From assembly GCA_947305045.1 (NCBI GenBank), contig CAMZCW010000158.1, positions 1 through 5,633 on the forward strand: 5,633 nt of DNA, read 5' to 3'. Shown here one piece after another: positions 1,371 through 4,860 of this stretch. Every line of letters starts with the position of its first letter. Within the stretch, counting starts at the first letter, position 1. Made by a program: the position numbers and the translations under genes. This DNA is from an uncultured Bacteroidales bacterium (GTDB lineage: Bacteria > Bacteroidota > Bacteroidia > Bacteroidales > UBA932). The notes below the pieces were generated by a model. The model did no database searches. It was not told where the DNA came from and saw only the letters and a list, made by a program, of their open reading frames with translations.

Positions 1371-1646
1371 TTATTCTTCTTGTTTTTTGACAATCCTAAC
1401 CCCTTCACGGGCTTCGGGATACTTGTTGTCGATGTAATATTCCAGGGCATCGGCAAAGATGAAAGAAAGGCTTCGCCTTTTTCCCCTTTCATCCAGCCAT
1501 AGTGCCAAGACTCGCGCGTCTCTGAGGGTGGCGGCCGGCACCTTTACGGTCGCGTCGCTCCCGTCCTTCTTCTTTTTCATCTCTTTCTTTTGCGTCTCTC
1601 CGGGCTTTCTTCTGAGTTGCTCCCGGAACACTTCTAACTGATCCAT
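1371..1646 (-). CDS. Small ribbon-helix-helix-like protein, probably mobile-element encoded
   Basis: A 91-residue, strongly charged protein not recognised by name. A basic N-terminus (residues 12-29, with KKKK) precedes a short beta-strand-like ATVKVP (32-37), a helix (38-53, AATLRDARVLALWLDE) and a second helix (59-75, ending YYIDNKYP). This strand-helix-helix order fits the MetJ/Arc DNA-binding fold seen in plasmid and conjugative-element regulators and relaxase accessory proteins. Assignment rests on pattern only. It diverges from the HTH gene at 1958 and has a consensus promoter about 110 bp upstream, giving a long leader with a hairpin and phased repeats. Autoregulation is plausible. It could instead be a mobilization accessory protein, but no relaxase is present. 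Confidence 0.7.
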   Translation of the reverse strand: MDQLEVFREQLRRKPGETQKKEMKKKKDGSDATVKVPAATLRDARVLALWLDERGKRRSLSFIFADALEYYIDNKYPEAREGVRIVKKQEE

Positions 1647-2455: not shown

Positions 2456-2485
2456 TTGCTCAGTTAATTTTTTTAGCTATATTTG
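2456..2485 (+). promoter_or_regulatory. Promoter of the BlaI/BlaR1-type operon
   Basis: TTG (2456-2458), a 19-bp spacer and TATATTTG (2478-2485) give a near-consensus Bacteroidota promoter. The start point should fall near 2490-2493, leaving a leader of only 11-14 nt before the ATG at 2504. A weak dyad upstream, CGACA (2397-2401) and TGTCG (2413-2417), could bind a repressor, but it does not match the classical BlaI/MecI TACA/TGTA operator clearly. Confidence 0.75.
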
Positions 2486-2503
2486 CAGAAAAATGCTACG
2501 CTT

Positions 2504-2869
2504 ATGAAACGCCTGACCAAGAAAGAAGAGATTATCATGAACCACTTCTGGGAGAAGGGGCCGCTGTTTGTAAGGGAGTTACGCGAATTGTACCCAGAGC
2601 CCAGACCGCATTTCAGTACGCTAAGCACGCAGGTGCGAACGCTCCAGGAGGAAGGCTTCATTGACCATAAGTCCTATGGTCCCACCTACCAGTACTTCGC
2701 CAAGGTAACCAAGGAGGAGTACAAACAAAGGTCTCTTATCGGCCTCATAGACAAGTATTTCGACAATTCCTACCTGAGTGCCGTATCGGCCCTGGTGAAG
2801 GAGGAGAAGATTACTGTCGAGGAGCTGAAGGAGCTCATCGACCTGGTTGAAAAAGGAGAACAGAAATGA
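2504..2869 (+). CDS. BlaI/MecI/CopY-family transcriptional repressor
   Basis: A 121-residue protein, close to the usual 120-130 for the family. Residues 1-72 form the winged helix: TKKEEIIMNHFWEKGPLFVREL opens it in two helices, PHFSTLSTQVRTLQEEGFI is the recognition helix, and DHKSYGPTYQYFAKVTKEEY is the wing. Residues 73-121 are the helical dimerization part. In the family the dimer sits on its own operon promoter until an M56 sensor peptidase inactivates it by cleavage, and the overlapping M56 gene fits that scheme. The reading frame extends to a TTG at 2483, but that lies inside the -7 box, so ATG 2504 is chosen. It has almost no leader and no Shine-Dalgarno sequence. The ligand or stress sensed is unknown, and no beta-lactamase gene is adjacent. 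Family assignment is firm; calling it blaI would overstate the evidence. Confidence 0.93.
   Translation: MKRLTKKEEIIMNHFWEKGPLFVRELRELYPEPRPHFSTLSTQVRTLQEEGFIDHKSYGPTYQYFAKVTKEEYKQRSLIGLIDKYFDNSYLSAVSALVKEEKITVEELKELIDLVEKGEQK
2853..2858 (+). promoter_or_regulatory. Ribosome binding site of the M56 gene
   Basis: AAGGAG lies seven bases before ATG 2866, inside the end of the repressor gene. It is one of the few clear Shine-Dalgarno sequences in the window. With the ATGA overlap it implies coupled translation. The second ATG (2869) is one codon later and cannot be excluded as the true start. Confidence 0.65.
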
Positions 2870-4860
2870 TGGAATTCCTCATATATGATGCTAAGGTTGC
2901 GCTTGCGCTGCTGGTGTTCTACCTGTTCTACCGTTTCCTTCTGAAGAAGGAGACGTTCCACCGGTTCAACCGGGTGGTGCTGGTGGGAACGGCTGTGCTC
3001 TCGTTTCTGCTGCCGCTGTGCATCATTACCATCCATAAGCCCATAGAGGTGGCGCCCGTGGTTCCGGAACCGGCTATCGTGGCAACGGAGGTCCCGGCCC
3101 AGGAACTGGTACCGCTGGTGGAACCCGCCGTTCCCTGGTGGCCGACAGCCCTCACCCTCCTGTTCTGGGCGGGAGTGGCTTTTGTGCTGGCCAGGGTGAC
3201 CATCTCCGTCCTTTCCATCGTGAGGATTATCCGCCGGGGGCGGCTGGTCCGGGAAGAGGATGGCTGTAAAATCATTGTAACGGAGCGGGATATCGACCCG
3301 TTCAGCTGGATGAAATATATTGTCCTGTCCGTAAAAGATTGGGAGGCACCGCATGCGTCCATCCTCGCTCATGAGAAGGCGCATATCGGCCTTGGGCATT
3401 CCCTTGAAGTGCTTTTGGTGGATGTCCTTTCGGCCCTGCAGTGGTTCAACCCGGCCATCTGGATGCTCCGCGCCGACCTTCAGGAACTCCATGAGTACGA
3501 GGCCGATGACGCCGTTCTCCGCGCCGGAACCGACATCAAAGAGTATCAGTATCTATTAATAAGAAAAGCTGTCAGCAAGAGCGGCTACTCAGTTGCTAAC
3601 AGCTTTAATCACAGTATCCTTAAAAATCGTATTACTATGATGTCAAAATCCAAATCCCCTCTCGTGAGAGGGCTGCGGGTGCTCTGGATGCTCCCGCTCG
3701 TGTGCCTGGCCATCGGCCTTCAGGCAAGGACTGTCTACGTCCCGGTGGACAAAGATAGTGAAAATATGGGCGCCGTGCAAGATACCTTGTCGGAGCGCAT
3801 TAGCAAAAAGACCACCCTCAATGAGGTCACGGTTGTCAAATACGCCAATCCGGAGGAAGAAGATCTTATCGAGTTCTTCCTGGTAGATCCGGACACGATG
3901 CCCTCTTTCCAGGGAGACGATGCCAATCAGTTCGCAGCATGGGTGAACCAGCGGGTTAGCTATCCGAAGGAATGTACCCATTCCGGAACCATGAAGGTCA
4001 GGTTCGCGGTTGGGTCTGACGGATCGGTCAGGGATATCAGGGTCATTGAGAGTGTCTGTCCGGAGCTGGATGCCGCCGTCATTACCGTGATGGCACAGTC
4101 TCCCAAGTGGACGCCGGCCACTAATAAGGGGAAGCCGGTTTCCTATGGCTTTACCATTCCTTTCAACTTTATAAGGAGGGAGGTCGGCAGCGCAAAGAAA
4201 TCTTCAGCCCTCGCGTTGAGAGTGCTGCCGGACGGCAAAGTGGAAAACGACGGAAAGGTATATACCAAGGAACAAATCAAGGAGATTGTCCCCGCCCATA
4301 AGGCCGGCGAGCCCCAGGCTATCATCCAGATTGTCGCCGCTGACAATGTTCCCATGGGCGTCATCGATGACGTGAAAACGGAACTGCGCAAATTAGAATC
4401 CCTGAAGGTCCGCTATGCATCGGCCTCCGGCCAGGAAGGCACCACCCGCTATATGCCTCCGCTTCCTCCCAGCCCGACAGCGAAAAAGGCGAACTATCCC
4501 GACGAACTGTTTCCCGGGGTGAAGCGCGAGAACATCTTCGTGGTGCGCATCAATTCTGCAGACAGGATTTTCTTTGGAGATAAGCCCCGTTCGGATGATG
4601 AAGAGATGCTTCGGGCGGGAAAAGAGTTTCTGAGAAAACGGGGGAATAAGGCTCTCTTCGCCCTCACGGTGGACAGAGGAACCAGTTATGGCGCTTACAC
4701 GCACATACAGTCCCTGCTGTGGCAGATCTATGAAGAGGTCCGGGCCGAGAAAGCCCACGAGGCCTATGGAAAAGCCCTTTCGGAATTGTCCGAAGAGGAA
4801 CTACAGAATATCTATAAAATGGTTCCGATGAATATTGTTGAAGCGAGTCCTAAAGGTTGA
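2866..4860 (+). CDS. BlaR1-like M56 sensor peptidase fused to TonB C-terminal and two ExbD-like periplasmic domains
   Basis: A 664-residue membrane protein. Membrane helices lie near 5-23, 37-57, 93-118 and 271-287. Loops of the first pair are Lys/Arg-rich (22-36, inside) and Pro/Glu/Val-rich (58-90, outside). The cytosolic part between helices 3 and 4 holds the zinc site HEKAH (169-173) and the likely third ligand Glu212 in HEYEADD, as in M56/BlaR1. After helix 4, where BlaR1 carries its penicillin-binding sensor, come three domains. A TonB C-terminal domain (about 346-436) contains YPKE, DGSVRDIRVIES and PKWTPATNKGKPV. A short-type ExbD/TolR periplasmic domain (about 446-521) has LRVLPDGKV, VYTKEQ and ADNVPMGVIDDV. 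A long-type Bacteroidota ExbD domain (about 553-664) has RENIFVVRINSADRIFFGD, DRGTSYGAY and a MNIVEASP end. M56-TonB fusions are known in Bacteroidota. Neither ExbD part keeps its transmembrane Asp helix. It presumably senses an envelope signal and cleaves the overlapping repressor; the signal is unknown. Confidence 0.9.
   Translation: MMEFLIYDAKVALALLVFYLFYRFLLKKETFHRFNRVVLVGTAVLSFLLPLCIITIHKPIEVAPVVPEPAIVATEVPAQELVPLVEPAVPWWPTALTLLFWAGVAFVLARVTISVLSIVRIIRRGRLVREEDGCKIIVTERDIDPFSWMKYIVLSVKDWEAPHASILAHEKAHIGLGHSLEVLLVDVLSALQWFNPAIWMLRADLQELHEYEADDAVLRAGTDIKEYQYLLIRKAVSKSGYSVANSFNHSILKNRITMMSKSKSPLVRGLRVLWMLPLVCLAIGLQARTVYVPVDKDSENMGAVQDTLSERISKKTTLNEVTVVKYANPEEEDLIEFFLVDPDTMPSFQGDDANQFAAWVNQRVSYPKECTHSGTMKVRFAVGSDGSVRDIRVIESVCPELDAAVITVMAQSPKWTPATNKGKPVSYGFTIPFNFIRREVGSAKKSSALALRVLPDGKVENDGKVYTKEQIKEIVPAHKAGEPQAIIQIVAADNVPMGVIDDVKTELRKLESLKVRYASASGQEGTTRYMPPLPPSPTAKKANYPDELFPGVKRENIFVVRINSADRIFFGDKPRSDDEEMLRAGKEFLRKRGNKALFALTVDRGTSYGAYTHIQSLLWQIYEEVRAEKAHEAYGKALSELSEEELQNIYKMVPMNIVEASPKG

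Follow-up and report, generated by a model that had tools for sequence, protein, structure and literature searches.

An M56 peptidase of an uncultured Bacteroidales bacterium carries TonB- and ExbD-type periplasmic domains and may sense the Ton machinery

The stretch of DNA analysed here (the window, 5,633 nucleotides from an uncultured Bacteroidales bacterium with rumen relatives) carries a BlaR1-like gene pair whose M56 peptidase has a sensor made of parts of the Ton machinery. The gene blaI (2504..2869, forward strand) encodes a BlaI/MecI-type repressor (Penicillinase_R, 1.2e-23). Its 3′ end overlaps by 4 bp the start of a gene for a 664 aa protein (2866..4860, forward strand) with the order M56, TonB box, TonB_C, ExbD_B and ExbD_A. 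Both M56-BlaI and M56-TonB_C proteins are already known, the latter also by database name.

The M56 core spans residues 1-290 (2866..3735, forward strand) and was recognised by Pfam (PF05569, 39.4 bits, cut-off 31), hydropathy and motifs. Hydrophobic segments lie at approximately residues 4-26, 38-66, 91-122 and 266-294, and both metal motifs, HEKAH (169-173) and HEYEADD (209-215), fall between the third and the fourth, in agreement with a first-pass annotation of this DNA, which had described an intact core with four membrane helices. No membrane helix follows approximately residue 294 (maximum mean hydropathy 1.26), and the C-terminal sensor presumably lies on the periplasmic side. Pfam places TonB_C at residues 372-435 and ExbD at 443-511, the latter exactly at the gathering score, and assigns nothing to 530-664; a PDB sequence search with the protein returned only two TonB chains (E 0.03-0.04). 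Compared with the PDB, an AlphaFold2 model of residues 285-664 (44 sequences; mean pLDDT 70.6, pTM 0.52) contains, each where expected, a TonB C-terminal domain, one ExbD domain and another of ExbD/TolR type. The first-pass annotation had claimed a TonB domain followed by two different ExbD domains and had proposed structure prediction of residues 340-664 as a check; the model returns those three folds, and the profiles and tree described below concur. Neither Pfam nor our own Plug profile detected a receptor Plug domain in the window protein. The domain architecture of the protein is secure.

The two ExbD-type domains are of different types. The first, at residues 446-522 (4201..4431, forward strand), is a short-type (B) periplasmic domain with no transmembrane helix, and the second, at residues 555-664 (4528..4857, forward strand), is a long-type (A) periplasmic domain. 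The ExbD-B profile matched residues 486-522 with 21.4 bits (best of 1000 shuffles, 9.4), and the ExbD-A profile matched residues 522-575 and 594-663 with 68.1 bits (best of 1000 shuffles, 6.4). Both regions for which an absence of ExbD profile similarity would have spoken against the first-pass annotation (446-521 and 553-664) are thus matched. A quick tree of 78 rows placed all 18 first domains with eight ExbD-B proteins and all 19 second domains with 33 ExbD-A proteins, with an SH-aLRT of 100 for the split between ExbD-A and ExbD-B. On the A side, fused and genuine ExbD rows are not cleanly apart, and several fused rows are long-branched. The ExbD transmembrane helix with its proton-handling (channel) Asp is absent from both fused domains, as the first-pass annotation had stated and hydropathy confirms. 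The segment TTRYMPPLPP (residues 526-535; 4441..4470, forward strand) is, in the ExbD-A profile alignment, the counterpart of the RRLPPMP that follows the transmembrane helix of long ExbD (as in L088). By position it is perhaps the NIBS strand: residues 240-380 of the AlphaFold2 model span ExbD residues 43-137 of 8pek, as judged from the first and last residue only, and the NIBS occupies 44-49. Part of PMC10771500 describes this strand as closing the ExbD dimer and being displaced by TonB.

Separate ExbD genes have the opposite order. Each of five carrier genomes has one adjacent pair, a long type A gene (187-194 aa) followed by a short type B gene (156-161 aa), in the arrangement exbB, small membrane ORF, exbD-A, exbD-B; no tonB was found in the approximately 3 kb read around the pair in these genomes. 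The A-B order held at all 15 loci where both genes were recognised, among 34 surveyed, and the fused order was B-A in all 29 ORFs with both domains from 80 loci of relatives and at ten further loci (counts over loci and ORFs, here and below, are raw and ignore kinship). The first-pass annotation's claim that the modules follow the order of separate tonB, exbD1 and exbD2 genes is therefore wrong. In the 80 loci ExbD-A never occurs without ExbD-B (29/29 ORFs), and ExbD-B is always N-terminal to it. Nine ORFs have ExbD-B alone, one of which (L014) ends at a contig end, and the ExbD-B of L184 was detected by Pfam only, so the pairing is not absolute. Each of the five carriers has genuine ExbD-A and ExbD-B, receptors (14-34 Plug matches per genome) and proteins in which TonB_C occurs without M56; in G004, only one TonB_C frame besides the M56 frames, of 438 aa, exceeds the cut-off. 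In four of the five there is also an ExbD gene that does not belong to the A-B pair (G001:C25, G002:C1, G003:C48 and G005:C2), and in G002 and G005 it has a weak TonB_C match within approximately 1 kb. These further genes (frames of 137-180 aa) were set aside.

The TonB C-terminal domain, identified by Pfam and by AlphaFold2 with the PDB, comprises residues 345-439 (3898..4182, forward strand). Going beyond the first-pass annotation, we recognise from sequence a TonB-box-like motif before this domain, and a putative receptor Plug piece in relatives. The motif, LNEVTVVKYA (residues 318-327; 3817..3846, forward strand), resembles the TonB box of the carriers' receptors, L[DNE]E[VT]VVVGYG. The matrix was trained on 15 distinct boxes: a rule written from the known TonB-box consensus selected 16 boxes in 20 scanned receptors, and one of them, out of register, was dropped. 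On it the window motif scores 14.5 bits, against 25.6-32.1 for the training boxes on their own matrix. None of 355,403 background windows reached that score (best 13.2; the background comprises every ORF of the 80 loci that exceeds 200 aa and lacks M56, spurious ORFs included), and 2 of 20,000 shuffles of residues 286-440 did. Boxes of relatives score up to 24 bits (LSEIVVIGYG, LDEIVVVRYG). For the 70 M56 ORFs with 430 aa or more we set a threshold of 9 bits ourselves; a box was found in 34 of the 57 with TonB_C and in none of the 13 without, the gap between box and TonB_C being 15-27 aa in 33 of the 34; the other 23 TonB_C ORFs have no box at this threshold. The box is not linked to the ExbD pair (13/27 ORFs with the pair, 21/43 without).

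We considered that the motif might be a TonB D-box, the ligand of ExbD (part of PMC12215075 deals with the roles of D-box and TonB box). This reading is disfavoured because the box goes with TonB_C and not with the ExbD pair. AlphaFold2 of box plus TonB_C (34 sequences) left the box disordered (pLDDT <50), and in the model of 285-664 it is a strand with pLDDT of approximately 45. Docking of the box in cis on its own TonB_C is not supported by the AlphaFold2 monomer model; a disordered box would be more in keeping with an exposed bait that TonB binds in trans.

Ton parts, combined in different ways, make up the M56 sensors of these Bacteroidales. Across 88 M56 ORFs from the 80 loci, Plug piece, box, TonB_C, ExbD-B and ExbD-A occur in many mixes. 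TonB_C without the ExbD pair is found in 41 of the 70 longer ORFs, and L017 and L018 have tandem TonB_C. The Plug piece falls below the Pfam cut-off (PF07715, E 2e-4 to 1.5e-3, in three of ten relatives) and reaches 59 bits with our own profile; it precedes the TonB box in 15 of 27 Plug-bearing M56 ORFs of at least 430 aa. Plug-carrying M56 ORFs include those of L025, L040, L049, L067, L072 and L080. An insert between the fourth membrane helix and the Ton parts (SGSTWKG...FEIRSE) was seen in P0009, P0033, L023 and L032 and is perhaps a small beta domain.

The first-pass annotation had also suggested surveying M56 proteins for this architecture. The 149 genomes sampled from G001's family include 11 with the ExbD-B/ExbD-A pair in one long frame (E up to 1e-20); in all ten besides G001 the pair-bearing proteins are M56 proteins, several with divergent M56 cores. 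The order survey gave some match in 225 of 295 sampled genomes, and at least two long pair frames stand among the matches listed, in G001 and G233 (L184), a count that leaves out listed frames of 293 and 305 aa and may miss weak-scoring fusions. A search with region 330-664 collected 173 proteins, and all 99 that exceed 600 aa (the window's included) have the pair, as such a search leads one to expect; 61 of these have the box, 32 have a box below threshold and six have two TonB_C domains.

We infer the ligand and output of the window sensor as follows. The protein would be a BlaR1-type one-component anti-repressor whose periplasmic sensor of Ton parts reads Ton occupancy and frees its own operon, a proposal to which we give an even chance. 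The parts would keep the partners of their originals: TonB_C would bind receptor TonB boxes, the sensor's box would bind TonB, and the ExbD-B/ExbD-A pair, as an intramolecular ExbD heterodimer, would bind the D-box of TonB. By such partner mimicry the sensor would compete with receptors, TonB and ExbD, reading the Ton machine without driving it. A shift in free and engaged Ton components would rearrange the sensor and switch on the cytoplasmic protease, and BlaI would be cleaved. The blaI-M56 operon, and in some relatives a receptor-like gene behind it, would then be derepressed. We counted in favour of Ton sensing that a single machine supplies all recognised sensor modules. The domain identities by profile, tree and fold, the tie of the box to TonB_C, the ExbD-B/ExbD-A pairing, purifying selection on the sensor, the adjacent blaI genes, the receptor-like ORFs behind some M56 genes and the carriers' own Ton components also speak for it. 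Against it stand the poorly modelled box, the sensors that lack a box or ExbD-A, an exact operator confined to blaI-M56 pairs, the opposite-strand gene behind the window's pair, and receptor-like ORFs with weak or no boxes that never directly follow a sensor with the ExbD pair. The first-pass annotation had likewise favoured sensing over energising, and with no ExbD transmembrane helix or Asp and an adjacent blaI, this appears the most plausible reading of the sequence.

A broader proposal, held tentatively and at somewhat under even chances, joins two claims: a family of 'Ton-state' sensors in the Bacteroidales, proteolytic one-component regulators whose periplasmic part rebuilds the Ton contact chain, and a motor built on an ExbD-A:ExbD-B heterodimer. 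The chain would run from receptor Plug and TonB box through the TonB C-terminal domain to the ExbD-B/ExbD-A heterodimer, and free or engaged TonB and receptors would compete with the sensor's own parts, setting BlaI levels. The pairing of ExbD-A and ExbD-B in the sensors suggests that the Bacteroidota motor itself uses the heterodimer.

We regard it as unlikely that the protein is instead a BlaR1-like sensor of envelope or cell-wall stress, its TolR-like ExbD domains binding peptidoglycan, and not a Ton reader. M56-BlaI systems are classically sensors of cell-wall antibiotics, which counts for this explanation. An M23 (LytM-type) peptidase domain precedes the same ExbD-B/ExbD-A pair in L066:6147-8681 and L078:6192-8711 (PF01551, 2.8e-25 and 2.7e-27), sensors that have their own blaI and a second blaI-M56 pair downstream, and the ExbD periplasmic domain is described in part of PMC10771500 as binding peptidoglycan glycan chains transiently. 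However, Ton interactions account for the TonB box, Plug piece and TonB_C, and the wall does not; nor would a wall binder need two different ExbD types in fixed order.

The presence of TonB_C and both ExbD-type domains could also mean that the chain works directly on the Ton machine, whether as a decoy, a brake or a TonB-like transducer, and one relative (P0099) bears the source name 'energy transducer TonB'. We consider this quite improbable: the chain lacks an ExbD transmembrane helix with Asp, its anchor is the four-helix M56 core and not a single TonB helix, its protease motifs are intact and blaI is adjacent.

Core and sensor have partly separate histories. Synonymous divergence of the two is discordant in the pairs L004/L015 (core dS 0.024, sensor 0.331), L001/L002 and L005/L017; the different ages of core and sensor point to sensor swapping between loci by recombination. 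After residue 290, dN/dS (Nei-Gojobori) was 0.17-0.29 in nine pairs that share sequences, which indicates, at the level of sequence, that the sensor is under purifying selection. That the sensor consists of fragments shuffled passively, with no Ton role and only the M56-BlaI core mattering, would fit this discordance (as in L004/L015) and the wide variation of sensor architectures, but is very improbable given the dN/dS values, the B-A pair on divergent M56 cores and a box found only with TonB_C.

If the sensor reads Ton occupancy, its immediate output would be its own operon. Adjacent blaI genes, which the first-pass annotation had noted in the window, adjoin 83 of the 88 M56 ORFs. The five exceptions are the over-long ORF of L003, where an apparent BlaI-M56 fusion was rejected as a wrong-frame extension, an L051 ORF near the start of its contig and, in L037, L057 and L079, the second piece of a gene that reads in two frames. 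Behind the window's M56 gene the next gene, for a GNAT acetyltransferase, lies on the opposite strand, so the operon is probably blaI-M56 alone. Upstream of blaI lie a tRNA-Asn gene (1068-1142), an ORF without a Pfam match (1371-1646, reverse strand) and an HTH_17 (helix-turn-helix) ORF (1958-2236); the region 1068-2236 is possibly the remnant of an integrated element. The protein encoded at 29-922 of the window (reverse strand) has two HU domains of the CCDC81-like type; a membrane segment at its C terminus was judged by eye. Rfam at gathering scores found tRNA and nothing else in the window, and megablast found no plasmid matches to the blaI-M56 gene pair.

A promoter at 2456..2486 (forward strand), which we take to be of Bacteroidota type, has TTG at 2456 and TATATTTG at 2478-2485 and is conserved in 65 regions. 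Overlapping it is a probable BlaI operator, the inverted repeat AGTTAA...TTAGCTA (2461..2480, forward strand). The consensus of 65 aligned blaI upstream regions, the window's included, is AAATAGTTGCATAGYTAAAAATTTTAGYTATATTTGC, an inverted repeat over the promoter; the alignment was anchored on the right half-site and the -7 box, and the left half-site is conserved though it lies outside the anchor. The exact operator occurs at six sites in the five carrier genomes, all before blaI (reversed control, none): five before sensors studied here and one before another blaI-M56 pair (G005), with four of the six contexts read and two assigned from their coordinates relative to L027 and L003. With two mismatches allowed, four more sites appeared, against eight control matches. 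A BlaI regulon beyond blaI-M56 was rejected on the exact sites in the five genomes; the only indicated targets are blaI-M56 operons, and control of any Ton gene is not indicated.

Thirteen of the 80 loci have a receptor-like ORF behind an M56 gene on the same strand, ten of them within 200 bases (the 13 are L019:2489-5371, L036:9525-12407, L039:9730-12612, L060:9341-12214 and nine more loci). These ORFs were defined as relatives of one 961-aa ORF; of five scanned, all have CarboxypepD_reg and two an OMP_b-brl_3 barrel. Their TonB boxes are weak or missing, and none of the 13 lies directly behind an ExbD-pair sensor. Among the genes that PMC10470040 tabulates as changing with hemin supply in Porphyromonas gingivalis is a BlaI gene with an M56 gene nearby, which we take as a lead only.

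Among known systems, BlaR1/MecR1 with BlaI/MecI shares the four-helix HExxH core, the C-terminal sensor and the overlapping or adjacent BlaI-family gene, but its sensor is a penicillin-binding domain, whereas that of the window protein comprises a TonB box, a TonB C-terminal domain and two ExbD periplasmic domains. The M56-TonB_C proteins of Bacteroidota, some of them named 'energy transducer TonB', share the M56 core and TonB_C, to which the window protein adds the ExbD-B and ExbD-A pair. The TonB energy transducer has the same C-terminal domain on a single N-terminal membrane anchor that the window protein lacks. Short and long Bacteroidota ExbD and TolR share the periplasmic fold, the profile and the post-helix segment before the long type; in the window protein, by contrast, two types are fused in B-A order with no transmembrane helix or channel Asp. 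Cell-surface signalling of the FecA-FecR type, which works through an anti-sigma/sigma pair, shares the idea of passing the state of a TonB-dependent receptor to a transcription regulator; the window system would use a metalloprotease and BlaI. In the literature searched, which did not extend to subscription journals or preprints, we found neither an M56-ExbD nor a double-ExbD sensor described. A 2025 study of periplasmic force transducers (PMC12204202) has no word beginning with 'BlaR' and a single occurrence of 'BlaI'.

The fused ExbD-B/ExbD-A chain offers a ready soluble construct, a natural tool for probing a possible ExbD heterodimer of the Bacteroidota motor and its ligand. The carriers have many receptors, and a protease-coupled sensor built in this way could serve as direct feedback on the load of the Ton motor; the sensor described here may report how busy the nutrient-import motor is.
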